From the IMG/VR virus record IMGVR_UViG_3300013103_000026, positions 1 to 38,317 of that record: a stretch of DNA of 38,317 nt; one strand, 5' to 3'. A program made the translations under genes and the position numbers. Below the pieces are notes generated by a model that saw only the letters and a program-made list of their open reading frames with translations, was not told the origin of the DNA and ran no database searches. Shown here in pieces: positions 3,889 to 27,667 of the stretch. Positions within the stretch are counted from its first letter, which is position 1. Each line of letters opens with the position of its first letter. This DNA comes from a virus.

Positions 3889-3893
3889 AAGGG

Positions 3894-4227: not shown

Positions 4228-4503
4228 ATGAAATCATTTAAACAATACCAAAAACCACTTGAAGAAAGAGCATTACATATGATGTTTAAGAAAATTGACA
4301 TCAAAATTGCTAAATCTACCCATAAAGATTTAAAAGATGAACAGATTATTGATAAACGTCATAAATTTGGTGATATTATAACAAAAAAAGATATTAATAC
4401 TTATTATTCACATATGAGTGAATTTAATCATAATTATAGGGAAGAAATAGAATCTTACAATAAAATTGTAAGTAGGGATGAAAAGGAAATAAGGGGAAAT
4501 TAA
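4228..4503 (+). CDS. CTS-bearing small protein, only plus-strand gene (91 aa)
   Basis: The frame can be read from a GTG at 4189, but ATG 4228 is preferred because the protein then begins MKSFKQYQKPLEE. That matches the capsid-targeting N-termini common in this window, with P-L-E-E as possible maturation site. The remainder is charged and helical without a known domain. The late promoter at 4215 fits a head protein made late. The stop meets the stop of the minus-strand gene at 4500 in a shared TTAA, so the two genes converge end to end. Confidence 0.78.
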   Translation: MKSFKQYQKPLEERALHMMFKKIDIKIAKSTHKDLKDEQIIDKRHKFGDIITKKDINTYYSHMSEFNHNYREEIESYNKIVSRDEKEIRGN

Positions 4504-5204
4504 CCCCCTACTATATCAACATTTTTCAATAATGCATTTTGTTGTTTCTTCAATTCACGTTTAGCTTTTGCTTTATTCCTATTCACTTCACGTTTCTTTG
4601 CTAATTCTATTTGCAAAAATTCATCCATTTTGGCATATTCTGTATTAATTCCATTTTTAGCATTAATATTATCAGCTTCTTCATGAGTTAAAATTTTAAC
4701 AACTTTAATTGCACCGGATATACGCCAATCCATGACAGTACCCTTGGCTTTATTTGTATTGAAATAATAAAATCCCCCATATGGGACATGATCATCTAAT
4801 TGAGTTACATTCTCTTTTTTCAAGACAGCGTTCCAATTATAATCATTCGGAGCTTCACATAACGCCCAAACTCTATTTTCTTGCATTGTCTGTCTATCTT
4901 TTTTCATTAGATGTGGAGCATATGGTGAACCACCACTATGCCACCCAGGACGTTTTTTGAACCCCTTAGTTTCAATATTTTCTGCAACTTGCCATTTATT
5001 AATAGCAGTTGGTTTCATTGATCCAATAAAAAGAGGAAATATCTTATTTGGTGATTTTTTCTTTTGTTTGAATAATTTATACACTTTAATAGTTTTTGTT
5101 GGAGGATATTTTGTTGTTTTTTTAGCTTCTTCAAAATATTTTTTTGTATCTTCAAAACTTAATATTTTTTTATTTTCTATCAAGAATTGTTTAAAATTTA
5201 ACAT
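4500..5204 (-). CDS. Putative internal head protein with CTS and a polyvalent-protein-like domain, 234 aa
   Basis: The N-terminus MLNFKQFLIEN is a good CTS with an L-I-E cleavage site. After a Lys-rich linker, residues about 40-175 (KVYKLFKQ..., RPGWHSGGSPYAPHL, RVWALCEAP, WRISGAIKVVKIL) resemble, from memory, a domain found in large polyvalent proteins of phages and mobile elements; I cannot name it. The C-terminus is strongly basic and helical (KKREVNRNKAKAKRELKKQQ), suiting DNA or scaffold contact. A TATAAATA late promoter at 5240-5247 and AAAGGAT before ATG 5204 support late expression and this start. Confidence 0.8.
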   Translation of the reverse strand: MLNFKQFLIENKKILSFEDTKKYFEEAKKTTKYPPTKTIKVYKLFKQKKKSPNKIFPLFIGSMKPTAINKWQVAENIETKGFKKRPGWHSGGSPYAPHLMKKDRQTMQENRVWALCEAPNDYNWNAVLKKENVTQLDDHVPYGGFYYFNTNKAKGTVMDWRISGAIKVVKILTHEEADNINAKNGINTEYAKMDEFLQIELAKKREVNRNKAKAKRELKKQQNALLKNVDIVGG

Positions 5205-6940: not shown

Positions 6941-6946
6941 TTGAAT

Positions 6947-6998: not shown

Positions 6999-7021
6999 GT
7001 ATCTCATGAATAGGAATAAAT

Positions 7022-13019: not shown

Positions 13020-13651
13020 AATAATACCCTTGGTTCACAATTACATGATTTTGTTTGTTTTTGTTTGGTAAAATCAATATTATTAAAATAATTCTTAAAT
13101 ATTTGTATATTTTCCTGTGTTTTATTATGTATATTTTTTTGAGGGATAGTGTAATCAAATTCATATAAATCGGCAAACATTTGTCCTGTTAAGAATTCAA
13201 TATTTTCTGGTTGTTCGTTTCGTTTTAACTTCATTCCAGAAATAATTGCATCATATGTTATTGCATCCCATGAAACAAAATAACATTTATAATCTAAATG
13301 ATTATAATAATCATATAATTTTGATAATGAACTAAGTTCCCCTTTACTTTTTTTTGTATCAAAATTTACACCATTTTTTATTTCAATTATTCTTTTATTT
13401 GTACAATCAATAATATCAGCTTCTATTGTTGTTTTGTTTATTGTTGTTTTATGATGCCTATAAATTTCATTATTTTTATTTATAATAGAACATATTTGAG
13501 TTTCAAGTTCATAACCTATTTTTATTTTAATAGATTGTACGCTTGCAATCAAATTTCCTAATTCAATATTTCCACCAAATACATCACATAAAGATGAATT
13601 AGTAGTAGTCGATGGTGTTAATTTTAAATCTATCAAATTCCTTTTCTCCAT
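13016..13651 (-). CDS. PD-(D/E)xK restriction endonuclease (module B)
   Basis: The 211-residue protein has a clear nuclease core: E50 in an N-terminal helix, D79 in TIEADIID, then E90-x-K92 in RIIEIKNG, followed by a helix rich in Lys and Ser. This is the PD-(D/E)xK arrangement of type II restriction enzymes. It overlaps the methyltransferase gene in an ATGA junction and the primase gene by 19 bases on the other side, so it is co-translated with replication genes. The target site cannot be read from the sequence. Confidence 0.75.
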   Translation of the reverse strand: MEKRNLIDLKLTPSTTTNSSLCDVFGGNIELGNLIASVQSIKIKIGYELETQICSIINKNNEIYRHHKTTINKTTIEADIIDCTNKRIIEIKNGVNFDTKKSKGELSSLSKLYDYYNHLDYKCYFVSWDAITYDAIISGMKLKRNEQPENIEFLTGQMFADLYEFDYTIPQKNIHNKTQENIQIFKNYFNNIDFTKQKQTKSCNCEPRVLF

Positions 13652-14637
13652 AATGTCATTTTTAATTTCGCTTTCATTCCCTGAAAGGTATTATTGTCAA
13701 TCAATTCCTTTAAGGGAATGAGATCATATCCCCACTTCACATAATCATTAATATCTTTACCGTCTAAATCATTTGGTAAAATAGCAATGGGGAATCCCTT
13801 TTCAATACATTTCATCATAATTTTCACAATTACTGAATTTTTAGGTTCTCGATCCAAAATGATTGTAAAATCATCATATTCGGGTGTAAATGTATTTAGG
13901 CTTGATCCTGCATAAGCAATACAGTTTGGTAAAAATAAACTGTCAATTGGTGCTTCAACAATATATACTTTTTTAGTTGGATCGATTGTTTCTAAACCAA
14001 ATATTTTTGGTTGATCTTTCATCATATCCAATGTAACAAATCTAAATTCTTTTGATTGTGGATCAATATATCGACCTTGAATGTGTGTAGTTCTCCCATC
14101 CATATTGATAAATTCAAATACAATCATATCAGCAACAGGAAATTTATCATCATATCCCAATTGAACACCAATTTTATTTATATTATCCGTGTAATAAATT
14201 CTATGATATTGTTCTTTGGGTATTAATCTACTTTTAACATAACGAACAGCAACATGATCATCATCTAATTTATCTAAAGATTCCATACCTAATACATAAT
14301 CAAGTATCTTTGGTTTATTCTTAAATAATGAATTGTTGAATTTTGGTTTTGGCTTATATTTACTTTTAAATTTCTCAGCTTTCCATTCTTTCCATAATTC
14401 CGGATTAACAGCTTTAATTAAATTTCCAGCAGACATACCAACATTGCAATTATGACATTTATATTGATATTTGTTTTGTTTTTCATAGATATAACCTCTT
14501 GCTTTGAGCTTATCTTTTTCAGAATCACCACATATCGGACACGAAAAATTAATTAAATTATTTTTCTTTTCCTTGTAATTTCTCAATTGTGTTGATAACA
14601 ATCGAATATACTTCATGTCTATGTACGGATCTGCCAT
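13633..14637 (-). CDS. DNA primase, T4 gp61-like
   Basis: This 334-residue protein has a zinc-binding domain (C33, C36, C61, C64 in CPIC and CHNC) followed by a Toprim catalytic core with E228 in VYIVEAPIDSLF and D262 in TIILDREP. Size and order match phage primases that make RNA primers with the gp41-type helicase, which is also encoded here (25298..27667). The start at 14637 is directly served by the promoter at 14674-14702. It heads the transcript containing module B and the reductase. Confidence 0.9.
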   Translation of the reverse strand: MADPYIDMKYIRLLSTQLRNYKEKKNNLINFSCPICGDSEKDKLKARGYIYEKQNKYQYKCHNCNVGMSAGNLIKAVNPELWKEWKAEKFKSKYKPKPKFNNSLFKNKPKILDYVLGMESLDKLDDDHVAVRYVKSRLIPKEQYHRIYYTDNINKIGVQLGYDDKFPVADMIVFEFINMDGRTTHIQGRYIDPQSKEFRFVTLDMMKDQPKIFGLETIDPTKKVYIVEAPIDSLFLPNCIAYAGSSLNTFTPEYDDFTIILDREPKNSVIVKIMMKCIEKGFPIAILPNDLDGKDINDYVKWGYDLIPLKELIDNNTFQGMKAKLKMTLWRKGI

Positions 14638-14673: not shown

Positions 14674-14702
14674 AGTTTAGCACAATATATATATTATGTC
14701 AA
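14674..14702 (-). promoter_or_regulatory. Promoter TTGACA - 17 - TAAACT before the primase
   Basis: Minus strand: TTGACA (14702-14697), a 17-base spacer and TAAACT (14679-14674), followed by a leader of about 30 bases. The -35 box overlaps the end of the upstream gene. Box sequence and spacing equal those of the promoter at 7278. Confidence 0.8.
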
Positions 14703-15052
14703 GATATTTCTAATAAATCGGTTAATTTAACATCTTGTTTTATTCTATGTGTAAGATTGCTCTGAATGTATATATTAAGAAATATTAATATAGATTTAAT
14801 GGCAGGATAAAATTTATCTTCCAATTTATAGAATAATATAACATTAGTTGCTTCCACACCAAATACATTATTGAGTGTAATTACATGATTTAAAACAAGT
14901 CTTTCATTAATTTTATTGGATGTTAAGTACCGTGATAACATTTTTTTAATATTGGTTACGGTACTTAAATCTTTTTTAAATTCATCCAGTGAGAAAAAAC
15001 GTGCTTTGTAGTTTTTTATACAATACTGAACAAAATCATCATTATCATTCAT
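14699..15052 (-). CDS. Unknown conserved-looking helical protein, 117 aa
   Basis: This is an all-helical protein (FFSLDEFKKDLSTVTNIKKML, NERLVLNHVITLNNVFGVEA) of a kind I associate with T4-like and cyanophage genomes near replication genes, but I cannot name it. It lies directly before the primase and may act in replication or late transcription. The start at 15052 follows the upstream stop closely. Confidence 0.75.
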   Translation of the reverse strand: MNDNDDFVQYCIKNYKARFFSLDEFKKDLSTVTNIKKMLSRYLTSNKINERLVLNHVITLNNVFGVEATNVILFYKLEDKFYPAIKSILIFLNIYIQSNLTHRIKQDVKLTDLLEIS

Positions 15053-15501: not shown

Positions 15502-15939
15502 TTATAATTCTAAATCTTCTTCTTCATAATCGTATTCATAATCACTTATATGATCATCATGTTCATGTTCGTGATATGGATGGAATGGTTTTTGATGATG
15601 TGGATCGTCAATGATTTTTAAAACTGCTTCCAAATCACTTTCTTTTTTAAATTCAATATATTTTTCAACAGGATACATAACATAATCTTCTGGTGAAATA
15701 TTTAAATTAACAACTGCTTTTTTCATTGATGTTGAATCTTCATATTGATATTGAACCCAACCATCATCAACATGATCTTCTTTCAATGATTCCTGATATT
15801 CTTTATATTTTTTCATTTTTTTACGCCTTGCTATTTTTGTTTTTTCTTTTTTTCTTTTACCATCAGTTGCTTCATGTGAATCCATTGATCCAGCACTTAC
15901 ACTATTTGTTGGTTCACCATCTTCAAAGAGATTTTTCAT
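15502..15939 (-). CDS. Acidic/His-rich protein with internal CTS-like segment, 145 aa
   Basis: The N-terminal 40 residues contain PTNSVSAGSMDS and a basic run (KRKKEKTKIARRKK). Then comes MKKYKEYQESLKED, which by itself looks like a capsid-targeting sequence with an S-L-K-E site, so an internal start at ATG 15816 is possible (AAGG lies upstream of it). The C-terminus is rich in His and acidic residues (HPYHEHEHDDHISDYEYDYEEEDLEL) and may bind metal. A late promoter lies directly upstream (15956-15963). The full-length start at 15939 has GGAA at a suitable distance. Probably a late virion or head protein. Confidence 0.75.
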   Translation of the reverse strand: MKNLFEDGEPTNSVSAGSMDSHEATDGKRKKEKTKIARRKKMKKYKEYQESLKEDHVDDGWVQYQYEDSTSMKKAVVNLNISPEDYVMYPVEKYIEFKKESDLEAVLKIIDDPHHQKPFHPYHEHEHDDHISDYEYDYEEEDLEL

Positions 15940-15955
15940 ATTAATTCCATGTAAT

Positions 15956-15963
15956 TATTTATA
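15956..15963 (-). promoter_or_regulatory. T4-type late promoter
   Basis: There is an exact TATAAATA on the minus strand about 16 bases before ATG 15939. The short leader carries the GGAA ribosome binding site. It opens the transcript for the genes at 15502 and 15056, downstream of the head-protein cluster. Confidence 0.75.
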
Positions 15964-15968
15964 CAATG

Positions 15969-16235
15969 TTAATTAGCAACATGTACTGATTCACCGGAAC
16001 CACCAGTAACATTAAATGATATTCTTTGATTATCCCAATAAGATTTATTTAACTCACCGGAAGTTTGTACACTTGTTCCAATTTTTCGACAATGTGAGTA
16101 AACTTCATCACCACCAGAATTAACACGAATACCATTAACTTGTTTATTCCACAAATTAGATTGTTTTCCTCCAGGGTCAGGAGGTGCGTTATCGTATTCC
16201 CAATCTGAGTTATTTGGTATATGTGTAAATGCCAT
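15969..16235 (-). CDS. Unknown Gly/Asn-rich protein, 88 aa
   Basis: This small protein (MAFTHIPNNSDWEYDNAPPDPGG...) is rich in Gly, Asn and Ser, with WNKQVNGIRVNSGGDEVY in the middle, and looks like a beta-structured virion protein. It lacks the CTS found in most neighbours. The start at 16235 lies one base after the stop of the ParB-like gene. Function unknown; a decoration or head-completion role is only a guess. Confidence 0.75.
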   Translation of the reverse strand: MAFTHIPNNSDWEYDNAPPDPGGKQSNLWNKQVNGIRVNSGGDEVYSHCRKIGTSVQTSGELNKSYWDNQRISFNVTGGSGESVHVAN

Positions 16236-16236
16236 G

Positions 16237-16950
16237 TTATGCGTTCCTTTTGTTTCCTACTGCATCTGAGTAGGATAATGTTAATGGTAGTAAATCTTTA
16301 ATTGGTAAATCAATAACCAATGAATTAACTTTCATTGTTGGATCTAATAATACAGAAGCTAAAAATCTATGATGTCCATCAATGATGTAATGATCTTTTG
16401 ACATAATGAAAGTAGTATTTTTTCCTGTCATAAATGCTTTTGATTTAACAGCACCATTTTCTGCAATTGGATTAATTGACTTATCAAAATATATTTGTTT
16501 TTGTATTGGATGTAATGACCCAACGGTAACTTGCTCCATCTTAACTTTTACGATATCATCTTTAATACTACCATCATGACGCTTTAATCCATTTTCCAAC
16601 CATTGATGTCCGGTTTGTTGTGTTAGTCCTTTTGGAAAAGGATGTTTAGTATTTTTAGGATGTGGTGATTTAATATCAATATGACCATTTTCTAGTCTAC
16701 GCTGTAAATCCTTAACATCTTTTTCTTCAATTACAGGCATATCTTTACGTTGTGTTTTACCTGACCCTGCTTGTTTTTGAGCAAATAAATAATTCTTATC
16801 AAAATCAGGAATTTGTTCATCTAAATCACGATCATATTTTTGAAAATCTTTTTCAGCATATTCCCTTGCTTTTTTAACGTCTGTTTTTACTAATTCAAGT
16901 TGTCCTGCCCCTTGTCCAGCTTCAATTAAATATTGTTTAAATGTATTCAT
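16237..16950 (-). CDS. CTS-bearing ParB-like protein 1, 237 aa
   Basis: The N-terminus MNTFKQYLIEAG is a strong capsid-targeting sequence with an L-I-E cleavage site. The C-terminal 100 residues carry VGSLHPIQKQIYFDKSI and IIDGHHRFLASVLLDP, the D-G-H-H-R signature of ParB/sulfiredoxin-fold proteins with putative nuclease or NTP-binding activity. It is paralogous to the gene at 21056, sharing the order CTS, KDMPVI block, HPIQKQIY and DGHHR. The start at 16950 overlaps the upstream stop (ATGA). Likely packaged in the head and ejected with the DNA. Confidence 0.82.
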   Translation of the reverse strand: MNTFKQYLIEAGQGAGQLELVKTDVKKAREYAEKDFQKYDRDLDEQIPDFDKNYLFAQKQAGSGKTQRKDMPVIEEKDVKDLQRRLENGHIDIKSPHPKNTKHPFPKGLTQQTGHQWLENGLKRHDGSIKDDIVKVKMEQVTVGSLHPIQKQIYFDKSINPIAENGAVKSKAFMTGKNTTFIMSKDHYIIDGHHRFLASVLLDPTMKVNSLVIDLPIKDLLPLTLSYSDAVGNKRNA

Positions 16951-17279
16951 TCATTTGTCCCTAATGTGTTTAGATTTACTTTTTCAAAGTTTCCGTGTTT
17001 TGTTAATGTTTTATTATAAACTTTTTGGTATGATGTTTTGGCAACACAAATATTACGTTCTTTAAATTTATATTTATCGTGTTTAGCAATAGCCAACTTT
17101 CCACCATAATACCTTTTATTTCTAAAATGAACTTCAACTTGTTCAATATTTGATTTTGCTATATTAACAGCATCTTGCTTATCATCAGCCAATACAAAAA
17201 TAGAATCCAAACTATCTTCATAGTATCGACCACCCCAAAAATTTCCCCGAACTATAACTTGATATATGTCTTGCATCAT
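16947..17279 (-). CDS. Unknown protein, 110 aa, no CTS
   Basis: A mostly beta, basic protein (YQVIVRGNFWGGRYYEDSLDSIFVLADDKQDAVNIAKSNIE is the first part, shown by its ends YQVIVRG and AKSNIE). It lacks the targeting N-terminus of its neighbours. Start 17279 overlaps the preceding stop by one base (TAATG), and its stop overlaps the next start (ATGA), so it is in the same translated run. No family recognised. Confidence 0.75.
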   Translation of the reverse strand: MMQDIYQVIVRGNFWGGRYYEDSLDSIFVLADDKQDAVNIAKSNIEQVEVHFRNKRYYGGKLAIAKHDKYKFKERNICVAKTSYQKVYNKTLTKHGNFEKVNLNTLGTNE

Positions 17280-17791
17280 TATTTATCCTGATCGATTATT
17301 CTAAATTTTAATAATGGTCTATTGTTAATGGTGATATCACCTTTTTCATTTTTACCAATAGATTTAACTTTGATTTTTTTGTTTTTAAATTTACCACCCA
17401 ATACAATATCACCAACTTTTATAGGAATTTTTATATCTTCTATAATAATTTTATTTTTAGTTAATTTTGGTGATTTTGCAATTGGTTCATATTCTGAACC
17501 AACTTGTGATAATTTTAATGCTTTATATAATTTATAAGTATCTGAATTTTTAGATTTTGTAATATAATAAGAATCATTTCCATCTTGTGCTAATGCGATA
17601 TACCATCCATCAAGTTCATAAGGATGTGTTTTCAATTCAACTCTATTAGATAAAATGATATTTTTATTACCAATTGTAATTTTATCACCCTTACCTAATC
17701 TATCAAATGATTTGATGTTATCTGTTTTGGACTTTTTTAGTGATTTAAGTTTAGATAAATTACCCTCATTAAATTGTTTAAATGATTTCAT
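17279..17791 (-). CDS. CTS-bearing protein of unknown cargo, 170 aa
   Basis: ATG 17791 overlaps the upstream stop (ATGA) and gives MKSFKQFNEGNLSKL, a capsid-targeting-like start; a second ATG two codons earlier is less likely. The remainder is basic and beta-rich with repeated short strands (KITIGNKNIILSN, KIPIKVGDIVLGGKFKNKKIKVKSI), which suggests small barrel (SH3/KOW-like) folds able to bind nucleic acid. No family can be named. Confidence 0.78.
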   Translation of the reverse strand: MKSFKQFNEGNLSKLKSLKKSKTDNIKSFDRLGKGDKITIGNKNIILSNRVELKTHPYELDGWYIALAQDGNDSYYITKSKNSDTYKLYKALKLSQVGSEYEPIAKSPKLTKNKIIIEDIKIPIKVGDIVLGGKFKNKKIKVKSIGKNEKGDITINNRPLLKFRIIDQDK

Positions 17792-18234
17792 ATCCATTCT
17801 TTTTTACCTAATGCTAAAAATAATTCTTCTAATGGGGTTTTTAATTCTTTATTAATTTTATTAGAATTTGTATTTAATTCTTTAATCCATTCCTTATCAT
17901 CAGGAAAGGTTTTATAAATTTCAATAATTGTTTCAGATTTATCACCATTAATGAAACGATTTGATAATTTTTCAATTAATATAATGTCTTTGGTATATTT
18001 CTTGATTTGTTTTTCCCAACCATTAAATATCATTTCATTAATGGTTGCACCACCTTTTGAATTACTCAATTTCATGATCGTTGTTAATTGATCAATATAA
18101 TCATTTGGTGAATCTTCAAGTTGTATGATTTTCTTTAAATCTCTAAATGTAAAATTGACAGCATAGACATTCTTTGCCTCCAATACTGGAGCTTTTTTAC
18201 TGTAATCATTTAAGAATTGTTTAAATTTTTTCAT
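17788..18234 (-). CDS. CTS-bearing helical protein, 148 aa
   Basis: It begins MKKFKQFLNDYSKKAPVLEA, a targeting-type N-terminus with a less typical cleavage site (V-L-E-A at 17-20). The body is helical and charged, without a recognised domain. It overlaps both neighbours by four bases (ATGA), so it is co-translated within the head-protein run. Confidence 0.8.
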   Translation of the reverse strand: MKKFKQFLNDYSKKAPVLEAKNVYAVNFTFRDLKKIIQLEDSPNDYIDQLTTIMKLSNSKGGATINEMIFNGWEKQIKKYTKDIILIEKLSNRFINGDKSETIIEIYKTFPDDKEWIKELNTNSNKINKELKTPLEELFLALGKKEWI

Positions 18235-18536
18235 CTAATATACATATTTAACTCAAAAGTGTTTCGTTTTGTTTCACGATTATAAACTTGGAAATGAATA
18301 GCCTTACGTTGCTTTTTACCATCCTTATATAACGACATGGTATATCGGTTAGTTTTTCCACCAGAAGGTTTTTTTGGACCAAACCCTACGGTTTCAGCCA
18401 TTTCTTCATCATCCAACGTATAACCATTTTTAACAACATATGATTCCATTTCTTGAACGGCACTTGTTAATGAATCATGATAAATTTCATATTTACCACT
18501 ATTTGCTTCGTTTAAATATTCTTTATATTTACTCAT
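18231..18536 (-). CDS. CTS-bearing member of a widespread small phage protein family, 101 aa
   Basis: MSKYKEYLNEAN is the targeting N-terminus, with L-N-E as cleavage site. The body (YEIYHDSLTSAVQEMESYVVKNGYTLDDEE, given here by its ends, then GFGPKKPSGGKTNRYTMSLYK and KQRKAIHFQVYNRET) matches a pattern I remember from many T4-like and marine phages, always without assigned function. It is compact, alpha/beta and basic. The start overlaps the previous stop by four bases. Confidence 0.82.
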   Translation of the reverse strand: MSKYKEYLNEANSGKYEIYHDSLTSAVQEMESYVVKNGYTLDDEEMAETVGFGPKKPSGGKTNRYTMSLYKDGKKQRKAIHFQVYNRETKRNTFELNMYIR

Positions 18537-18895
18537 TTGATTTTCCTTTGGATCGAACTTAATTCGTTTATGATTTTTTCTAATTTAGATGTAATGGAAG
18601 AATCCGTTATTCTTGTATTAGTTAATGATAATATATCAATCGCTTCACCAACCATCCCATTTTCTTTAGATGATTCATTTAAATATTTTTCATTCCAAAT
18701 ACTTAATAATGCTTCATCTTTACTTTTAAATATTTCACTAAGATCACCGTTTTCATTTTCATATGACCATATTTCTTTTGTCATATTATGGATCAATTTA
18801 TAATCAACAGGAATTTTATTTTCCTTTACCATTTTTTCGGCAGGATCTTCAATGTTATCTAAAAATTGATCGTATTTGTTATTCTTCTTCGACAT
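18533..18895 (-). CDS. Probable CTS-bearing protein, 120 aa
   Basis: ATG 18895 is chosen over an upstream TTG because GGGGAT lies at a usable distance and the protein then begins MSKKNNKYDQFLDNIED. This is a shifted version of the targeting motif (KYDQFLDNIE). The body is helical and ends in a Ser/Ile-rich stretch (ITDSSITSKLEKIINELSSIQRKIK). It overlaps the gene upstream by 17 bases. Function unknown. Confidence 0.72.
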   Translation of the reverse strand: MSKKNNKYDQFLDNIEDPAEKMVKENKIPVDYKLIHNMTKEIWSYENENGDLSEIFKSKDEALLSIWNEKYLNESSKENGMVGEAIDILSLTNTRITDSSITSKLEKIINELSSIQRKIK

Positions 18896-19151
18896 AACCG
18901 TTAATATCCCCAAATGATTGCAATGATGTAATTAAAGATGAATGATCATTTGCATTACCATTAATGATAACATAATCTCTACCTTTTTCAATTACTTTTA
19001 AACTTTTTCTATGTTTAGTTGAATTTGATATAAAATCAACATTTCCCTTTGATACATATTTAAATCTATATTCACCAACCGGAACTTTACCAGACCTTAA
19101 TTTATTGGCAAATCCTTCTGATAATTTGTTAAATTCTTTATATGATTTCAT
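18879..19151 (-). CDS. CTS-bearing small beta protein, 90 aa
   Basis: The N-terminus MKSYKEFNKLSEGF is targeting-like, with L-S-E-G as cleavage site. The body (VGEYRFKYVSKGNVDFIS, HRKSLKVIEKGRDYVIING) is basic and beta. It starts two bases after the stop of the pyrophosphatase-domain gene. No known family. Confidence 0.78.
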   Translation of the reverse strand: MKSYKEFNKLSEGFANKLRSGKVPVGEYRFKYVSKGNVDFISNSTKHRKSLKVIEKGRDYVIINGNANDHSSLITSLQSFGDINGYVEEE

Positions 19152-19153
19152 TT

Positions 19154-20095
19154 TTACACCTTTAATTTTTGTGTTCTTGTTAGAAAATTCTTTTTTCTCA
19201 TAACCGTTTTTGGTATCAATACCAGTTGTCCGGTAACATTATCAAAGTCTATTAAAAATGGAACATTAATATTATTCATATGATCAAATATAACAGCTTC
19301 ATGACCCTTTGACATATGAGCTATTTTAGCCCCATACTTTTTAAATGTGGCATTAAATAAATGTATCATTTCAGCTTCGGTAATTTCACGACCATTTCTT
19401 GCATCATTCAATCTATCAAAGAAATGACCCCTTAACTTAACATCAATGTTTAATGATGAAAAAATATCATCAGCATGTTGCTCAACTGATTTCATTTGAG
19501 CAAATGACATTTCAGATAACTGTTCTGTTTGGGACATTTTTAAAATTGCACTTTTAGCAAATTTTTTCATTTGAGCTAAACCATTTATCTCGGTATTTTC
19601 TTTAAGTAATAATACAAAACTTTCGGTCATTGGTTTCTTTTGTGATTTAACATCCAACCACTTTTTAAAAGTATCAATATCCATTTCTATAATATCTTTC
19701 TCATAGTTAGACCAACCCTTATCGTATGCAGATAGATAACCTTTTTCTGCATCCTTTTTGTCAGTAAAACCCATCATTACTTTATGTTCATCAAACTTTC
19801 CTTTATCATCAGTTTGATTAATTGTAAAGATACGTTCACTCTTTTTATCGGGACCAACAAACACATCAACAGCATCACCATCAGCACCATTGGTTCTTTT
19901 AATATAACCATAATCAAACGGCATTTTTACAGACCATTCTTTACCATCGGGATCAGTACCAGAACGAACTGACCCTTTACGATTTTCAATTGCTATATCA
20001 CAAGTACAAAATCGCATATGTTTTTTCTTATAATTCCCAGCTTTTATCTGAGCTTCGGATGGTTGTTCTTTTAAAAATGCTTTAAATTTTTTCAT
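19154..20095 (-). CDS. CTS-bearing protein with polyvalent-type inorganic pyrophosphatase domain, 313 aa
   Basis: MKKFKAFLKEQPSE is the targeting N-terminus with an L-K-E site. Residues about 25-150 carry the pattern DPDGKEWSVKMPFDYGYI, GADGDAVDVFVGP, FTINQ and FDEHKVMMGF, which is the inorganic-pyrophosphatase-like (InPase) domain described from phage and plasmid polyvalent proteins. The acidic residues D73, D75, D78 region (GADGDAVDVF) would bind metal. The second half (about 175-313) is a different domain with an AHMSKGHEAVIFDHMNNINVP-type segment. It may hydrolyse pyrophosphate or a related substrate in the newly infected cell. The CTS suggests delivery from the head. Confidence 0.82.
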   Translation of the reverse strand: MKKFKAFLKEQPSEAQIKAGNYKKKHMRFCTCDIAIENRKGSVRSGTDPDGKEWSVKMPFDYGYIKRTNGADGDAVDVFVGPDKKSERIFTINQTDDKGKFDEHKVMMGFTDKKDAEKGYLSAYDKGWSNYEKDIIEMDIDTFKKWLDVKSQKKPMTESFVLLLKENTEINGLAQMKKFAKSAILKMSQTEQLSEMSFAQMKSVEQHADDIFSSLNIDVKLRGHFFDRLNDARNGREITEAEMIHLFNATFKKYGAKIAHMSKGHEAVIFDHMNNINVPFLIDFDNVTGQLVLIPKTVMRKKNFLTRTQKLKV

Positions 20096-20108
20096 ATATC
20101 TATATCAC

Positions 20109-20267
20109 TCATTTTTTATATTCCCTTTCAAGAGCTTCTGATACTGTAATTATACCACTTAAATGACTATCAAGTTGATCTAAATAATTATATTTTGATG
20201 AACTATCATCAACAAAATCCATTTCTTTTGTCAATACATTTTCGTTTAATTCTTTAAAACTTTTCAT
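20109..20267 (-). CDS. CTS-bearing mini-protein, 52 aa
   Basis: ATG 20267 overlaps the stop of the gene upstream by one base (TAATG) and gives MKSFKELNENVLTKEMDF, with L-N-E and L-T-K-E as possible cleavage sites. The remainder is acidic and helical and ends at TGA 20109, 13 bases before the next gene. It fills an otherwise empty gap in the head-protein run, which supports it as a gene. Confidence 0.75.
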   Translation of the reverse strand: MKSFKELNENVLTKEMDFVDDSSSKYNYLDQLDSHLSGIITVSEALEREYKK

Positions 20268-20644
20268 TATAGTTTCTGCTTAATGTTATTTAAATATTCT
20301 TTATATGCTTTATCGGCAGTTTTTTCATCACCAAAACTACGCTCCCAAAATAAATTAAATCCATGAAGTACAAATGGATCATTTCCACGAAAAGCAATAT
20401 TATATTTTGTCATAATCTTTTTCATTTCAGAATAGGCAACAGTTTCAATCGTTTTGATTTCTTCATCAGATAATCCATAAGATTTTAATCGTTTAATCGC
20501 ATCTTTTTTATCCATAAAAAATAAATTATTATTTGTTTTATCGAATTTATTTTGAAATAATTTCTTAATTTTATTCAATATTGGTTCTTTTGTTACTGCA
20601 CGTTGTAATGTTATTTCAGTTAATAGATCTTTAAATTTTTTCAT
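20267..20644 (-). CDS. CTS-bearing helical protein, 125 aa
   Basis: ATG 20644 forms an ATGA overlap with the upstream stop, has GGGAA nearby, and gives MKKFKDLLTEITLQ, a targeting N-terminus with an L-T-E site. The body is basic and helical (AIKRLKSYGLSDEEIKTIETVA) and ends in a Lys-rich tail. No family recognised. Confidence 0.8.
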   Translation of the reverse strand: MKKFKDLLTEITLQRAVTKEPILNKIKKLFQNKFDKTNNNLFFMDKKDAIKRLKSYGLSDEEIKTIETVAYSEMKKIMTKYNIAFRGNDPFVLHGFNLFWERSFGDEKTADKAYKEYLNNIKQKL

Positions 20645-21069
20645 TGTTCCCAATCTCCGGTTGAACGTTTGTTGTAATATCCAATTTTTATATTATTGAA
20701 TAATTTTTTTAAATGTTTGTTGGTTCTAACTTGTTCAGCAACCATTTCACGATGATCACCCCAATATGATTTATTTATAAAATCTGTAATAGTAATTACA
20801 CCAGTATTTCCAGCAAATTCAATATAAGCAGGAATAAATTTATCATTCAATTTTAATGCTTTATGTGCTTGTGCATGAATTGCTTTTGACCATGCATAAA
20901 CATCACCATTATCCATCAATAATACTCTAAAACTATCAAAATCTTGTTTTGCTAATTCCATTATTTCTTTTCTTGATGGATTTTTAAAGATATTTAATGG
21001 ATCTTTTAAACTTGGTATCTTATATGTTTGATACCATTCTTCTTTTAAATATTCTTTAAACTTTTTCAT
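20641..21069 (-). CDS. CTS-bearing protein, 142 aa
   Basis: ATG 21069 is chosen because it gives MKKFKEYLKEEWYQ, a strong targeting N-terminus with an L-K-E site; the upstream in-frame extension has no such feature. The body includes FRVLLMDNGDVYAWSKAIHAQ and FAGNTGVITITDF, a mixed alpha/beta fold without a name known to me. It overlaps the ParB-like gene upstream by 14 bases. Confidence 0.78.
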   Translation of the reverse strand: MKKFKEYLKEEWYQTYKIPSLKDPLNIFKNPSRKEIMELAKQDFDSFRVLLMDNGDVYAWSKAIHAQAHKALKLNDKFIPAYIEFAGNTGVITITDFINKSYWGDHREMVAEQVRTNKHLKKLFNNIKIGYYNKRSTGDWEQ

Positions 21070-21646
21070 ATGATTCGTTTCGTGTATTACTAGTATGATC
21101 ATCTGAAAATTCTAACGCTAGTGGTAATAATTCAATTGCAGGTAAATCAACAATAATGGTATTAAATTTCATTTTAGGATTTATTAATAACCCTGTAAGC
21201 ATCCTATGATGTCCATCAATAAGATAATTATCTCTCGATAATACACTAACAGTTTTAGAATCAGTTAAGAAGTTTTTAGAATCTTGAACACTAAATTTAG
21301 CAATAATATCAATAGATTTATTTAAATAAATTTGTTTTTGAATTGGATGAAATTTACTAACTTCCTGTTTCTTTAATTTAAATTTAACACCTTTTTCTTT
21401 AAGAAATACTTTGAAATCAGCAATATCTTTTCTTGAAATTACAGGCATATCTTTTCTTAATGTTCTACCCGTACTCGCTTTCATTTGAGCTATTTCAAAG
21501 TTCTTATCAAAGTTTGGTATTTCTTCATATAAGTCTTTACCATATTCACGGAATTGACTTTGTGAATATTCAATAGCATCTGATAATGAATACTTTGAAA
21601 TTTCTACATTTCTACCTGATTTATTAAATTGTTTAAATGTTTTCAT
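21056..21646 (-). CDS. CTS-bearing ParB-like protein 2, 196 aa
   Basis: The N-terminus MKTFKQFNKSGRN is targeting-like but lacks a clean L-x-E site. The C-terminal half has VSKFHPIQKQIYLNKSI and LIDGHHRMLTGLLINP, the ParB-like D-G-H-H-R signature. It is a clear paralogue of 16237..16950, with the same KDMPVI and HPIQKQIY blocks, but about 40 residues shorter in the middle. The two copies five kilobases apart indicate duplication within the head-protein locus. Confidence 0.82.
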   Translation of the reverse strand: MKTFKQFNKSGRNVEISKYSLSDAIEYSQSQFREYGKDLYEEIPNFDKNFEIAQMKASTGRTLRKDMPVISRKDIADFKVFLKEKGVKFKLKKQEVSKFHPIQKQIYLNKSIDIIAKFSVQDSKNFLTDSKTVSVLSRDNYLIDGHHRMLTGLLINPKMKFNTIIVDLPAIELLPLALEFSDDHTSNTRNESYEKV

Positions 21647-22152
21647 AAGTTCCTAAGTTGTTGATATTTTGAATATTTGAAATCTTCAACACTTTCAACC
21701 ATAATAGGATTATAACCGGATATGTTATCAGATTCATTCAAATGTTTTTCATAATATAAATCATTAACATCATATGTGCTTACTACTTCACTGTTAGTAA
21801 CAATTTTGACAGGCATAAATTTACCTGCATTTTTTACATCTTTGGCATCACCAGCCCAAACAGATAATGCTTTTTTTAATTTTCGATCATATTTATTAGC
21901 ATTGACTAACCAAAATCTATTTGGAACCAATCTGATACGAACAAATCCATCCTTGATAACTTCCAACATGATTTGTTCACGGGCTTTACCTTCAAGACTC
22001 ATTGGCTCACCAAATTTTTCATAGACATTACGAATATAACGTTCTGTCAATCCAAACGATTTTGGTGATTTAATAATCTGATTAATGTGTGTTCCCATTC
22101 CAATATCAAGGATTTTGCCCCTTGGATTGATCCAGTAAGCATTTTGTTGCAT
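21643..22152 (-). CDS. Phage protein of a recurrent unknown family, 169 aa, no N-terminal CTS
   Basis: The pattern YWINPRGKILDIGMGTHI, FGLTERYIRNVYEKFGE, LEGKAREQIMLEVIKDGFVRIR recalls proteins seen in polyvalent loci and large phages, with no assigned function. It lacks the targeting start but sits inside the run, with an ATGA overlap to the ParB-like gene and AAAGG before its own ATG. The segment KHLNESDNISG contains an L-N-E site. Confidence 0.78.
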   Translation of the reverse strand: MQQNAYWINPRGKILDIGMGTHINQIIKSPKSFGLTERYIRNVYEKFGEPMSLEGKAREQIMLEVIKDGFVRIRLVPNRFWLVNANKYDRKLKKALSVWAGDAKDVKNAGKFMPVKIVTNSEVVSTYDVNDLYYEKHLNESDNISGYNPIMVESVEDFKYSKYQQLRNL

Positions 22153-22157
22153 TTTAC

Positions 22158-22340
22158 TTAACCTTTTTTCATTTTATTGATGAAATTTTGAAATGATTCC
22201 GCTTCCGATACTTCCATTTTGTGTTCCATTTTCTTGAAATGAGCATTTAAAACTTTCATAGCTTCTGATTTAGCCCATTTTTCACTTTCTGTTAGAACTT
22301 CTCTTTGTTCTTCCAAAAACTCTTTATAATTCTTTTTCAT
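22158..22340 (-). CDS. CTS-bearing small helical protein, 60 aa
   Basis: ATG 22340 follows AAGGAAAAAAC and gives MKKNYKEFLEEQREV, a targeting N-terminus with an F-L-E-E stretch. The upstream in-frame extension lies in the preceding gene and is rejected. The remainder is a charged single helix (AMKVLNAHFKKMEHKMEVSEAE). It may be little more than a CTS with a helical tail, as in small T4 internal proteins. Confidence 0.78.
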   Translation of the reverse strand: MKKNYKEFLEEQREVLTESEKWAKSEAMKVLNAHFKKMEHKMEVSEAESFQNFINKMKKG

Positions 22341-22356
22341 TTGTTTTTTCCTTAAT

Positions 22357-22524
22357 TTATAATGGTATTCCGTAAAGAATATAATCACCTGATTTACTTC
22401 GTTGAACATTTAAACCGGAATAATATACCTTTAATTTCTTTTTTTGATTCTTTGCTACATCTTCTGTATGATAAACACCAACAATACCTCTGTTGATATT
22501 AAGATATTCTTCATATGATATCAT
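22357..22524 (-). CDS. Small protein with CTS-like start, 55 aa
   Basis: ATG 22524 has an ideal ribosome binding site (AAGGAGA) and a promoter at 22547-22575. The protein MISYEEYLNINRGIV... has a weak version of the targeting motif. It is basic in the middle (NQKKKLKVYYSGL) and beta-rich at the end. It is the first gene after this promoter and precedes the long run of head-protein genes. Confidence 0.75.
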   Translation of the reverse strand: MISYEEYLNINRGIVGVYHTEDVAKNQKKKLKVYYSGLNVQRSKSGDYILYGIPL

Positions 22525-22546
22525 TAATATTCTCCTTTATCCCCTC

Positions 22547-22575
22547 AGTTTAACATATTTTACATATTAAAGCAA
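22547..22575 (-). promoter_or_regulatory. Promoter TTGCTT - 17 - TAAACT
   Basis: Minus strand: TTGCTT (22575-22570), a 17-base spacer and TAAACT (22552-22547), then GAGGGGATAAAGGAG as a very short leader. The -10 box and spacing match the promoters at 7278 and 14674. It would drive the head-protein run from 22524 leftwards. Confidence 0.7.
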
Positions 22576-22596
22576 TTATTTATTAATTAGTTCCAA

Positions 22597-23226
22597 TTAA
22601 CTGATTTCTGCTTCAAGTTGACTAATACCTTTATTAAATACTGCCACACGGGTTTTATCAACCACATGACCAATATTTTGTTTAATTGTCTGAAAAGCAC
22701 CTTTAATTTTCGCAACGATACCATCCTTACCACGAATAACGTTTTCTAAATTTGCCCCAATATGCCAACCCGTCCAAGCATCGATCATATGAATTGGTCC
22801 GGTAATTAAGTGTTGTGTAGCCATGTCAAGTTTTAATACAAAATCCAAAACATCTTCTTTTTTAACACTTCGAGCAAGTTCTTTAACTGTTTCAGAATCA
22901 CCACGGATACCAGCTAAAACCATTTTACCCACACCTTTACCTGCACTCATTATATAAGAGATAATACCCTTACCCTTATGTGTGTGTAATCCAACCTTTT
23001 TTAAACCCTTACTAAGCAAACCATCGACATTTTTGGCAACGGTACGAACATCCATTTTAAGAACATCCATAATACCTTCATTTAAGATATGATCACAATC
23101 AGCATCAAATGCTTCATATAATTGAGTTTGATCTGCCCCACGAATAGCAATGATTGACATAATATCTTCAATTAATACTTCACTTGGCTTATTTAATTCT
23201 TCTTGTAATGCTTTATAACTTTTCAT
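22597..23226 (-). CDS. Probable internal head protein with long propeptide, 209 aa
   Basis: It starts MKSYKALQEELNK (targeting-like) and has a second L-N-E|G-I site at 48-51 (HILNEGIMDVL), similar to QLNEGILDSL in the gene at 23420. Both may be cut there by the head protease, giving propeptides of 50 and 29 residues. The mature part is Gly- and Lys-rich with amphipathic helices (ISYIMSAGKGVGKMVLAGI), possibly membrane-active during DNA ejection. Its start overlaps the preceding stop by one base. Confidence 0.78.
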   Translation of the reverse strand: MKSYKALQEELNKPSEVLIEDIMSIIAIRGADQTQLYEAFDADCDHILNEGIMDVLKMDVRTVAKNVDGLLSKGLKKVGLHTHKGKGIISYIMSAGKGVGKMVLAGIRGDSETVKELARSVKKEDVLDFVLKLDMATQHLITGPIHMIDAWTGWHIGANLENVIRGKDGIVAKIKGAFQTIKQNIGHVVDKTRVAVFNKGISQLEAEIS

Positions 23227-23423
23227 TAATCTTTTCCCTTTTCATCCCACCAATCAGTTAATGTGATATAGTTTTTTTGTTCTTGTTTAGATAAATTTGA
23301 AGATTGATCTCCACGCTTATCAACTAATCTATTTAATTCTTTTTTCCGACTTTCGTAATCCGGAAATTTTTTGAAAACTTGATTTACGCCTTCAATAAGA
23401 TATTCTCTGTATTTTGTAATCAT
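23226..23423 (-). CDS. CTS-bearing small protein, 65 aa
   Basis: MITKYREYLIEGVNQV is a targeting N-terminus with an L-I-E-G cleavage site. The remainder is highly charged and helical (YESRKKELNRLVDKRGDQ). ATG 23423 overlaps the previous stop (ATGA). Probably a small internal head protein. Confidence 0.8.
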   Translation of the reverse strand: MITKYREYLIEGVNQVFKKFPDYESRKKELNRLVDKRGDQSSNLSKQEQKNYITLTDWWDEKGKD

Positions 23424-24238
23424 AATACTTCCTGTATTTTACTGTATTTATTAAATTGCTTAAATGACATTTTATAATCACATTTTTCTGCTATTTTAAA
23501 AATATGATGTTTTATTTTGTGCATAGTGGATTGATCTTTGAAGTTGGATTTTTTAAGTCCTGTATAGATAATACTCATAGTAAGATTATATGCAGTTACA
23601 GGAAAATAAGCTATAACAGAAATACCGGATAAACCAACCGCTAAAAATGCTATTGTTTTTAAACCAGTAGGGGATGTAAATAGATCGGCTAATGAATAAT
23701 TGCCAGCTAATGCATCTAATAGAGAAGATTGATCAATGTCAAAATCAAGACTTGCTCCCGTAAATGACATATTTAACCATATCCACAATAAAATTCCAGC
23801 AACAGCAATTCCACCTATTTTATTAAGAATGGGATATTTGTTGATAAATTCATCAACAGTCATAACACCACTATGAATTTTTTGTAATATTTTATGATTG
23901 TGGATTTCTTTGAATATTTTATTTAAACCACCATTTAATGCTTTTTGTCCTGCTTTAAGCATCATCAGTAATTTCTTAATACTAAACCCAACTTTCTTCA
24001 ATACTGAAAAAATTTCTCTATTTTTAAATGCTTTAATTATATCACGGGTTTCAAGTTTAGTAGAATCAACAAGTTCACCCATAGTTTTTTTAGCAGTTGA
24101 TATAAATTTACCAACCTTACCAGTTAAACCCGACAATGAATCTAAGATACCCTCATTTAATTGACCATTTTCGTCAAGCAATGCAATTTCATTTAAAGCA
24201 TCCACATATTCATCATATGTGATATTGTTATATTTCAT
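23420..24238 (-). CDS. Internal head protein candidate with two membrane segments, 272 aa
   Basis: The N-terminus (MKYNNITYDEYVDALNE) is a divergent targeting sequence, and QLNE|GILDSL at 26-35 is a likely head-protease site. Residues about 141-159 and 192-213 are hydrophobic enough to be membrane segments, preceded by a long Lys-rich amphipathic region. A protein with membrane helices packed in the head could help DNA cross the host inner membrane; this is inference. A late promoter lies directly upstream (24260-24267), with AGGAT before ATG 24238. Confidence 0.8.
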   Translation of the reverse strand: MKYNNITYDEYVDALNEIALLDENGQLNEGILDSLSGLTGKVGKFISTAKKTMGELVDSTKLETRDIIKAFKNREIFSVLKKVGFSIKKLLMMLKAGQKALNGGLNKIFKEIHNHKILQKIHSGVMTVDEFINKYPILNKIGGIAVAGILLWIWLNMSFTGASLDFDIDQSSLLDALAGNYSLADLFTSPTGLKTIAFLAVGLSGISVIAYFPVTAYNLTMSIIYTGLKKSNFKDQSTMHKIKHHIFKIAEKCDYKMSFKQFNKYSKIQEVL

Positions 24239-24259: not shown

Positions 24260-24267
24260 TATTTATA
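24260..24267 (-). promoter_or_regulatory. T4-type late promoter heading the head-protein run
   Basis: There is an exact TATAAATA on the minus strand, 21 bases before ATG 24238, with AGGAT as ribosome binding site in between. It can drive the overlapping genes from 24238 towards 16 kb as one late transcript. Confidence 0.8.
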
Positions 24268-25297: not shown

Positions 25298-27667
25298 TTA
25301 AATTTTAAAATCATCGAATTTCCCCTTATGTTTTTGCTTTGTATCTTCTTTAATAACATCATCAAATTGAGCAGTATCATCAACATCATACCAACTCATT
25401 GTATTAATGTTAGAACCAATTACAAATTTCTCATAATAGCCCTTATTGCCATATCTTGATTTTAATTGTTTGATCATTAATTGACCCAAAGCATCCAATT
25501 CTTCTGTTCTGATTAATGCCAACATAAAATCAGCAGTTGCAGGTAAACCAAATGATTCACTCGTATCAGTTAAATCAACATCTGGATTATTAGCACCGCC
25601 TCGATTTGATTGAGTAGCAGTCCATAAAACTGTATTTGTTTCTACTGCCAATGCTCTAAATTCTTCGGCAATGGCTTTAATGTAAAAATATGATCCGGTA
25701 TTAGCTAACTTGACCCTACTACTTGCCATAATATTTATATAATCTATCATTATAATATCTGGCGTGAAATTCATCTTCAATTGCCATTCTTGTAATAATG
25801 TCTTAATATGACCTGTATGAGCTGTACTTGTAGGATATTCGTGTATTTTTAATCGACCCTTTGTTTTATTCTTAATGGCATTAATTTTATTCATGAAGAT
25901 ATCGAAATCCATATCTTCTACATCATTCACATTAACTTGAAATTCATTAGCATCAACACGATTACCAATTGCTTCTTCACTCATTTCCGCTGTGATATAT
26001 GCAACATTATAACCAAGATTCATATATGCAGTTGCCATATGTACTAATCCCAATGTATTATGAGTAACAATAAAATCCTTTGTTAAATATAAATGATCTT
26101 TTGCTTCAACTTTAATACACATACATTCTTCTTTGTGTATTTTCTTTATTGATTCAATTTTTAGTTTTGGAATTTTTATTCTATTATTAAATATTTCCAC
26201 ATTCTTTTTATTTGGACTAATATTTAATCCATTTTCAGGATTAATTTTAATCATTATATCATAAGATGGTAATCCTTTTTTTCCATTACAATATGTTTGT
26301 TTATCTTTACTTGTGGCAATCCCACCTAAACTTCTTACAAGATCAATTACATCATTTTTAAGTTGTTCACTTGTAGTATAATATTGTAATGTTCCATGTT
26401 TACCACAATATCCATCAGAATCAATCAATCCTGTCAATAAATCCCATCTGTTTTGAATTGTAGAATTCATCATTTCTTTTGGAATAAACTTTTTATCTGA
26501 TTTCACTTTAAATAAATTATATTGTTTTAACTCTGTTAAATATTCATTTTCACCAGTGAACCTAGACTTAATTATATAATCGTATTTTGATTTATATTTG
26601 ATATCCATATCATCAATATCAATGATATTTTTTATTTTTTCAATAATATGGTTATCATTAGATGATATTCCAATAGATTCAGCCATTGTAGTACCATCAC
26701 CCAAATAAACACCCATTAAATATGGATCTATATTAAAATTATATTCTTTATTGAAATTAATTGGTTTAGATAATGGTATCCATAATCTTTTACTGTAATA
26801 TTTTAAATCCATCAACCTAAATATTTCATTAGAATCAATTGTAATTTGTTCTTTATTATCGCCTTTATATACATTCCAAAGATGTTCATATGAACATTGT
26901 GTTGATCTACCATCTTTGAATGTTATTTCATATAATGGTAATTCTCCCTGGGGATATGTATTGATAATTTTAGTTGGATTTCCATCACTACCATAAACAT
27001 AATCATTAACTTTTAAATCACCAAACATTTTAATTCCAGTTGGAGTTAATAATTTAGTAAAAATACTTTCAGCTTTACCTACATTAGTGGTTCCTAATAG
27101 AACATTTAAAGTTTTTCTTGGACAACCACCATTGGTAATTTTATTCAACATTTCAATGTCAAATTCGATTCTTGGATGATCTAAATTATAAAATTCAAAA
27201 CGCTTTTCAGCATCTTCTAAATAATCATGACCTAACTTAACATCAAATGAAATTGATAAGGCTTTTTTAAGAATATCGGGAATAGCGTGTTTAGTGTGTT
27301 TTTCATCAACACCATCAATAATGTCAATTGAATTTTGAATAGCATTATAAATAGCACGTTCTTGACAAAAACCCTCGGTTGTATTTACTAACCATTCAAT
27401 ATTGGGTTCTTCATCCTGTTCAAGATCACCCAAACTTTCCAATGTGTTTTCAAGGGTATCATCACGAATTTCTTCTATTTCTGCTATTTCGTGAGCAAGA
27501 GTTTCAGCCGTTGGTTTTGTATTATACTTTGCGTAGTATCTGACATATTGCTCAAAGATTAATTTATTTTCTTCATATTGAAAATATGATAATTTTAGGA
27601 AGGGTAATGCTCTTTTTATAAATTCATCATTATGTATTAAATTGGTAAGTATTAGTTCTTCTGACAT
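25298..27667 (-). CDS. Replicative DNA helicase, DnaB/T4 gp41-like, with intein
   Basis: The mature protein is about 450 residues: a small N-terminal domain, then a RecA-like core with Walker A GTTNVGK-T (192-198 plus T538), Walker B at IIMIDYINIM, and TQSNRGG and a Lys/Arg-rich region (QLKSRYGNKGYYEK) typical of the family. It forms a hexamer, unwinds DNA at the fork and works with the gp61-type primase (13633..14637). A 339-residue intein splits the Walker A motif, so the enzyme is inactive until splicing. The start at 27667 has GAGAG upstream and a hairpin-like leader (TATAGGGGATTACTATACCC). Confidence 0.92.
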   Translation of the reverse strand: MSEELILTNLIHNDEFIKRALPFLKLSYFQYEENKLIFEQYVRYYAKYNTKPTAETLAHEIAEIEEIRDDTLENTLESLGDLEQDEEPNIEWLVNTTEGFCQERAIYNAIQNSIDIIDGVDEKHTKHAIPDILKKALSISFDVKLGHDYLEDAEKRFEFYNLDHPRIEFDIEMLNKITNGGCPRKTLNVLLGTTNVGKAESIFTKLLTPTGIKMFGDLKVNDYVYGSDGNPTKIINTYPQGELPLYEITFKDGRSTQCSYEHLWNVYKGDNKEQITIDSNEIFRLMDLKYYSKRLWIPLSKPINFNKEYNFNIDPYLMGVYLGDGTTMAESIGISSNDNHIIEKIKNIIDIDDMDIKYKSKYDYIIKSRFTGENEYLTELKQYNLFKVKSDKKFIPKEMMNSTIQNRWDLLTGLIDSDGYCGKHGTLQYYTTSEQLKNDVIDLVRSLGGIATSKDKQTYCNGKKGLPSYDIMIKINPENGLNISPNKKNVEIFNNRIKIPKLKIESIKKIHKEECMCIKVEAKDHLYLTKDFIVTHNTLGLVHMATAYMNLGYNVAYITAEMSEEAIGNRVDANEFQVNVNDVEDMDFDIFMNKINAIKNKTKGRLKIHEYPTSTAHTGHIKTLLQEWQLKMNFTPDIIMIDYINIMASSRVKLANTGSYFYIKAIAEEFRALAVETNTVLWTATQSNRGGANNPDVDLTDTSESFGLPATADFMLALIRTEELDALGQLMIKQLKSRYGNKGYYEKFVIGSNINTMSWYDVDDTAQFDDVIKEDTKQKHKGKFDDFKI
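26057..27073 (-). mobile_element. Class 3-like LAGLIDADG intein in the helicase Walker A motif
   Basis: Residues 199-537 interrupt GTTNVGK | TLGLVHM. The first residue is Ala199, not Cys or Ser. The other residues fit the W-C-T set of class 3 inteins: Trp264 in the block B segment CSYEHLW, Cys517 in block F (MCIKVEAKDHLYL), and the +1 extein Thr538 after the terminal His-Asn. Two LAGLIDADG-type motifs are present (LMGVYLGDGT near 317 and LLTGLIDSDGY near 410), so the homing endonuclease looks intact. Class 3 chemistry starts from the internal Cys. Confidence 0.85.

Follow-up and report, generated by a model that had tools for sequence, protein, structure and literature searches.

The window analysed here (IMG/VR record IMGVR_UViG_3300013103_000026; 38,317 bases, 28% GC) is a fragment of an uncultured T4-like phage, known here from sequence alone. 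Between positions 15502 and 24238 of its minus strand lies a single run of 20 plausible genes, mostly overlapping or a few bases apart, many of whose products begin with variants of one short tag. We consider it probable that this locus is an expanded cargo operon of T4-type internal proteins in a lytic T4-like phage; it appears to have every defining feature of T4 internal proteins that is testable from sequence. A clear M-x-x-[FY]-K-x-[FY/L] start was present in 13 of the 20 genes, and a weak tag in three to four more (starts 24238, 22524 and 18895, and the internal ATG at 15816). The first-pass annotation had described about 17 tagged genes in one run. The run is real and far above chance, but the figure has to be divided into 13 clear and three to four weak cases. 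The examples it named outside the run were also present (starts +4228, 5204 and 3393). A purine-rich, ribosome-site-like stretch precedes most of the clear-tag ATGs.

The N-terminal signal and its register

The whole window is contained, at 99.9% identity, in IMG/VR contig G001 (144,243 bases), the start of which is overlapped at up to 99.9% by contig G003 (27,329 bases), the source of the head genes. Tag statistics were based on the 301 predicted open reading frames (ORFs) of the genome reconstructed from the window phage and overlapping contigs. A broad expression, M-x(1-4)-[FY]-[KRQE]-x-[FYL], adjusted after the tags had been seen, matched 23 of the 301 ORFs, compared with 4.3 +/- 2.0 upon shuffling of residues 2-25 (maximum 10 in 500). 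Within residues 1-22, an (L/I)xE site was found in 18 of the 23 tagged proteins and in 58 of the 278 others, 7.4 being expected by shuffling. The stricter DNA pattern MKx[FY]Kx[FY] gave eight matches in this genome and none in the reversed-pattern control. Among 12 reference phages, T4-like ones and relatives, the count was 0-2. In IMG/VR, MKx[FY]K[EQ][FY]LxE was found in at least 120 stretches, with an open-frame start tag in 106 among the matches listed. From the shuffling, reversed-pattern and IMG/VR results, it follows that the tag motif is a genuine, widespread N-terminal signal.

Over the 23 proteins, the genome-wide motif proposed in the first-pass annotation took shape as F/Y, K, E/Q, F/Y/L, L (or N), x and E at positions 4 to 10, with the aromatic columns at 4 and 7. 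In T4 IPIII, targeting proceeds mainly via residues 4 and 7, processing needs residues 8 and 10, and a protein with Asp at residue 10 is targeted yet not processed (PMC9026906). The register of the present tags equals that of T4, with targeting residues 4/7 and cleavage residues 8/10. As had been claimed, most tags contain an (L/I)xE site: it was present in 10 of the 13 clear operon tags, seven times as a canonical L-x-E directly after the second aromatic residue and three times slightly displaced. The LND of the 18234 tag resembles the Asp-10 change of T4, in which targeting is kept and cleavage blocked. Cleavable and apparently non-cleavable subtypes are adjacent, even between ParB-like paralogues (MNTFKQYLIE vs MKTFKQFNKSG).

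Tags also occur beyond the window, at L015:713 (MLKFKQFLVE), at L007:12480 (MLKFKNYLVE) and on a core-like protein at L015:11175 (MISYKEFNEDL). A late promoter core accompanies the gene of the MLKFKNYLVEQ protein (L007:12480-13418), whose P-loop (Zeta-toxin-like) match was weak and below cut-off. The ORF at 4228-4503, on the opposite (plus) strand, has no obvious ribosome site.

Head genes and late promoter cores of the same phage

The gp21-like protease and scaffold, which the first-pass annotation had expected elsewhere in the genome, were both found on G003. This contig carries gp17, gp18, gp19, gp20, a lysine-rich tagged protein in the gp67/68 position, gp21 (PF03420, E 1e-44), gp22 (PF25623, E 8.5e-55) and gp23 (PF07068, E 4e-133); this tagged protein, the core-like one with the MISYKEFNEDL start, lies between gp20 and gp21. 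PF03420 was absent from the window and the 144-kb contig because the head genes sit on another contig. Near its N-terminus, gp23 reads LNE-AGEPINSVGAG, matching the start of the 15502-15939 product. We infer that the latter may be a further type of gp21 junction, carried by a head protein. A motif scan of the genome found no further AGEPINSVGAG-like protein; the scan expression also missed gp23, which was read directly. The in-frame starts at 15939 and 15816 could yield two products, one with the gp23-like junction and one with the capsid tag.

The T4-type late promoter core TATAAATA is present at the head of the operon and again near its end (Table 1), as well as 35 bp ahead of the 5204 start. 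At a comparable distance, 37-54 bp, the same core is located upstream of gp20, gp22 and gp23. Late expression of the operon is likely but unproven.

Table 1. Features of the window bearing on the tagged locus.
Feature	Position	Strand	Remarks
gp41 helicase with intein	25298..27667	-	one border of tagged locus; homing endonuclease domains
T4-type late promoter core TATAAATA	24260..24267	-	exact match 29 bp upstream of 24238 start, operon head
First operon gene, 272 aa	23420..24238	-	weak tag ITYDEYVDALNE; hydrophobic segment
Tagged protein, 65 aa	23226..23423	-	MITKYREYLIE
Tagged protein, 209 aa	22597..23226	-	MKSYKALQEE
Possible small ORF, 55 aa, doubtful	22357..22524	-	weak tag MISYEEYLN
Tagged protein, 60 aa	22158..22340	-	MKKNYKEFLEE
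Untagged protein, 169 aa	21643..22152	-	within operon
Tagged ParB-like protein, 196 aa	21056..21646	-	MKTFKQFNKSG, no LxE site; DGHHR motif
Tagged protein, 142 aa	20641..21069	-	MKKFKEYLKEE
Tagged protein, 125 aa	20267..20644	-	MKKFKDLLTE
Tagged acidic protein, 52 aa	20109..20267	-	MKSFKELNE
Tagged InPase protein, 313 aa	19154..20095	-	MKKFKAFLKE; InPase domain 14-147 + C-terminal domain
Tagged protein, 90 aa	18879..19151	-	MKSYKEFNKLSE
Weakly tagged acidic protein, 120 aa	18533..18895	-	MSKKNNKYDQFLD (tag part NNKYDQFLD)
Tagged protein, 101 aa	18231..18536	-	MSKYKEYLNE
Tagged protein, 148 aa	17788..18234	-	MKKFKQFLND; Asp at cleavage position
Tagged protein, 170 aa	17279..17791	-	MKSFKQFNE, no LxE; alternative ATG at 17797
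Untagged protein, 110 aa	16947..17279	-	within operon
Tagged ParB-like protein, 237 aa	16237..16950	-	MNTFKQYLIE
Untagged protein, 88 aa	15969..16235	-	final gene ahead of second late promoter
Second T4-type late promoter core TATAAATA	15956..15963	-	24 bp upstream of 15939 start
145-aa protein	15502..15939	-	start MKNLFE-DGEPTNSVSAG; second in-frame tagged ATG 15816 (MKKYKEYQESLKE)
DUF7207 protein	14699..15052	-	PF23837 E 4.6e-26; conserved flank of locus
gp61 primase	13633..14637	-	other border of tagged locus
NrdA with intein (PF14890)	8977..12318
Tagged protein, 234 aa, outside operon	4500..5204	-	MLNFKQFLIE; late promoter core 5240-5247
Tagged ORF, 91 aa, gene status doubtful	4228..4503	+	MKSFKQYQKPLEE; TATAAATA at 4215-4222
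Tagged protein, 70 aa, outside operon	3181..3393	-	MSKYQEYRDSILE

Tagged genes between gp41 and gp61 in other phages

In this phage, 12 of 24 ORFs inside the gp41-gp61 interval are tagged, versus 13/290 outside (p = 5e-9). For T4, P-SSM4, KVP40, Melnitz and HTVC008M pooled, the corresponding numbers were 11/74 and 32/1263 (p = 1e-5); as the idea was formed from T4 and P-SSM4, the pooled p is somewhat flattering, and HTVC008M alone gave 0.003. T4 served as a positive control, from which gene 61.1 was recovered together with two MKTYQEFIAE proteins whose sizes fit IPII and IPIII. Tags in this interval were found in P-SSM4 (a cytidylyltransferase, MKKFSAFLKEA, plus two more), and also in HTVC008M, Melnitz, L150 and several metagenomic loci. 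The cyanophage cytidylyltransferase of S-SM1, T4-GC190, starts with MKKFSAFLNEA, is located in the interval, and was detected in purified S-SM1 virions by mass spectrometry (PMC3037559). Of the observations outside T4, this one comes nearest to direct evidence that such tags mean virion residence.

We had expected all strict-tag IMG/VR matches to lie near gp41-gp61, an expectation that was dropped, only some of the loci carrying those markers. Many of these matches fall into two widespread families of ~190-210 aa (MKTFKEYLTESKKTY) and ~105 aa (MKSFKQFLSESITING, phrog_1742), which recur in many T4-like contigs (L018-L137). The novel features are the length of the run, the distribution of polyvalent-type domains over small proteins that each bear a tag, and the repeated occurrence of tagged genes between gp41 and gp61. 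The last of these was not found described in the literature searched, which is weak evidence that no description exists. Tentatively, and with rather less confidence than we place in the locus itself, we suggest that this interval could serve many T4-like phages as a conserved cargo island, where a 10-residue capsid tag would turn any gene into an injected effector. Such an island would be a modular counterpart of the giant polyvalent proteins, with one tag for each enzyme.

Bodies and domains of the tagged proteins

Once the first 14 residues are removed, the median isoelectric point (pI) of the tagged proteins is 9.1, whereas that of other genes is 5.2 (p = 2e-6); mature masses of the clear members are ~5-35 kDa, and one clear member is acidic. 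The tag appears to be a portable module, because the bodies share no clear homology apart from that between the ParB-like paralogues 16950 and 21646 (46% identity by alignment; blastp E ~5e-49, bodies only). A ParB-like character of these two, without assignment to the DdrB subtype, is moderately supported by the DGHHR motif and phrog_2859 (E 2.6e-15 for 16237-16950). For 16237-16950, PF08857 matched weakly (18.1 bits, below cut-off), and the best PDB matches of a low-confidence structure model were ParB/sulfiredoxin, none significant, which lends weak support. Two models were made (mean predicted local distance difference test 49 and 44), and only the ParB one was searched against structures. 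A more distant ParB-like protein, in L150, is also tagged (MNTFKQYLAE).

The InPase assignment of 19154-20095 is firm, judging by PF18823 (E 6.4e-52) and the DGDAVD signature. Its C-terminal domain stands alone in L072 (MKKFKEYLAE) and in Melnitz gene 31 (MKTFLQFE), tagged in each, and MKKFA at the junction of the two domains aligns with the L072 tag, as if the gene were a fusion of two tagged proteins.

Elsewhere in the operon, the best PHROG match of 18231-18536 was to 'internal head protein' phrog_2667 (residues 1-45, E 0.14, not significant). The 23420-24238 protein has a homologue in phage NCTB (33% identity, E 3e-25), and its C-terminus carries a tag-like KMSFKQFNKYSKIQEVL that is not present in that homologue. 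In T4, Alt is another protein cleaved at its two ends (PMC9026906). No relatives of the 22597-23226 and 21643-22152 proteins were found in annotated phage records. Marginal Pfam/NCBIfam matches (SEO_C, L27e, MOR2, HTH_Cbp1, Zeta_toxin and DUF4106) were below cut-off and were discarded.

Proposed mechanism and alternative explanations

The capsid-targeting reading of the first-pass annotation is upheld by the T4 register, the phage's own gp21, gp22 and gp23, the portability of the tag, the basic bodies and the late-type promoter, and further by tagged orthologues in other T4-like phages, one tagged cyanophage family being found in virions. In the mechanism we propose, a late-type promoter would drive one tightly packed operon, and the first ~10 residues of the products would act as a capsid targeting sequence (CTS), with aromatic residues 4 and 7 docking the protein on the scaffold core during prohead building. 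gp21 would cut after (L/I)-x-E in most products, freeing a small basic protein, which would be packaged among the DNA and enter the cell alongside it. The injected cargo would act at the very start of infection, its most likely targets being host restriction or other defences that sense DNA, and would also ready nucleotide and DNA metabolism (pyrophosphatase, ParB-like enzymes). Of these steps, packaging of tagged products into the head is likely by analogy with homologous virion proteomics, tag cleavage is likely for ~10 products, and injection with the DNA is probable; the phage would then probably deliver, along with its DNA, a protein cargo of unusual size and variety. An anti-restriction role is suggested by analogy with T4 IP1-3, each of which blocks a different GmrSD restriction enzyme (PMC12373910), and a role in nucleotide/DNA metabolism by the InPase and ParB-like domains.

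Several observations weigh against this interpretation. The genes starting at 22152, 17279 and 16235 are untagged, and three of the 13 clear tags (21646, 18234 and 17791) lack (L/I)xE. KVP40 has no tagged gene among the nine in its gp41-gp61 interval, and the bias towards basic bodies is weak elsewhere, in other phages (40% vs 25% above pI 8.5). Over the whole genome, TATAAATA shows no over-representation (41 copies observed against 52 expected), and its presence at 2/9 leading tagged genes vs 6/106 is, taken by itself, not significant (p = 0.12). Finally, most cargo proteins had no identifiable function in the searches run, as the first-pass annotation had anticipated, and an anti-defence role is therefore argued by analogy only.

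It is also conceivable that the tagged proteins dock on the prohead core but serve there, as gp67/gp68 do, in head building or as part of the core, or else are broken down, in which case they would not be effectors that enter the cell. The phage's own protein in the gp67/68 position is itself tagged, and T4 IPIII also influences head assembly (PMC9026906). However, more than 12 mostly unrelated, fast-changing bodies, some of them enzyme-like (InPase; HAD and cytidylyltransferase among relatives), are unlike scaffold parts, and core proteins are usually conserved, making this explanation unlikely in our view. Alternatively, the shared N-terminus might have nothing to do with targeting and reflect early codons that are rich in A and favour translation, or DNA that recently recombined where genes start; MKK starts are indeed common in this 28% GC genome and the tag codons are A-rich. 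We regard this as very improbable, given that the composition-keeping shuffle gives four matches and not 23, that aromatic spacing and L-x-E are protein-level features, and that the same motif stands at gene starts in phages of 35-47% GC. There is similarly little to recommend a signal that sorts proteins elsewhere during infection, to the membrane, the replication compartment or the tail: the operon sits between replication genes and one member has a hydrophobic segment, but the T4 CTS residues are in register, a gp21-type site is next to them, and a tagged cyanophage protein occurs in virions.

Comparison with known systems

T4 IPI, IPII and IPIII resemble the cargo proteins proposed here in their ~10-residue N-terminal tag (MKTYQEFIAE; aromatic residues at 4 and 7, L/I at 8, E at 10), in small basic bodies without shared homology and in the same gp21/gp22 machinery. 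They differ in number and arrangement (three in two loci, versus 13+ genes in one operon here) and in the residue after the first aromatic (Q in T4, K here). The bodies here are unrelated to T4 internal proteins by the searches run, and the locus lies between gp41 and gp61. The first-pass annotation had taken T4, with few such proteins, as its yardstick; this is right for T4 with its three but sets the bar low: the internal proteins of T-even relatives, taken together, number at least 10 (PMC12373910), and two other metagenomic contigs, G011 (L125) and G005 (L042), carry comparable runs of seven tagged genes within ~5 kb, although with other bodies (DUF6267, HAD-like, nucleotidase-like).

T4 61.1 is likewise tagged (MKTFKEFIKED) and located between gp61 and gp41, and its NPENISIG..SGAV and lysine-rich stretch after the tag are like those of window 15502-15939; it differs in being a single 54-aa gene. 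It was not found described as an internal protein in the literature searched. The cyanophage interval shares genomic position, tagged proteins and, in S-SM1, virion detection, but has just one to four tagged genes, interspersed with untagged ones. InPase and ParB-like domains have been assigned to injected phage polyvalent proteins (PMC5512222). Polyvalent (DarB/DdrB-like) proteins share domains predicted to be injected, joined there in one giant polypeptide, whereas here they are separate small proteins with a tag each. Several unlike enzymatic domains in one polypeptide were not found: the longest operon member (313 aa) has InPase and one further domain.

Genomic context

Nearly all window genes are on the minus strand. 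At the DNA level, no close relative of the window was found among the annotated phages compared, and the nearest gp61 proteins (Melnitz, cyanophages) are ~37% identical. IMG/VR scans with the InPase and gp61 proteins singly matched only the phage's own 144-kb contig and one unrelated phage. The neighbourhood of the DUF7207 flank is the same in P-SSM4, S-BM1, S-SKS1, Melnitz, HTVC008M and L150.

A cytidylyltransferase-like + NUDIX protein (window 935-1948; L009:19155-20000) adjoins nicotinamide phosphoribosyltransferase; these neighbours resemble an NAD+ salvage pair, possibly for counter-defence. A QueC-like gene (window 31559-32215) suggests 7-deazaguanine metabolism or DNA modification, and two DNA methylases are present (window 12330-13019 and 7314-8324). 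A SegE-like GIY-YIG homing endonuclease lies amid tagged genes (window 3424-3966). An element of ~120 bp has ~92% identical copies at window 3906-4022, L004:4248-4366 and L007:7427-7556. Another, intergenic, element (window 6932-7044) is repeated in L005, L006, L007, L009 and L010. In those copies that were inspected, the palindrome ATATACCCACAATGGGATATA comes next; this is probably an early promoter/operator.

Implications

Among phage proteins, those that are injected encounter host defences first. With a cargo tag that can be read from sequence data, many proteins of T4-like phages now called 'hypothetical' would become testable candidates for anti-defence or takeover functions. The tag would also account for the presence in virions of products from neighbours of the replication module, such as the cyanophage cytidylyltransferase. 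If the gp41-gp61 interval is indeed a cargo island, the tags would reveal which proteins are injected by uncultured T4-like phages of marine and fresh waters.

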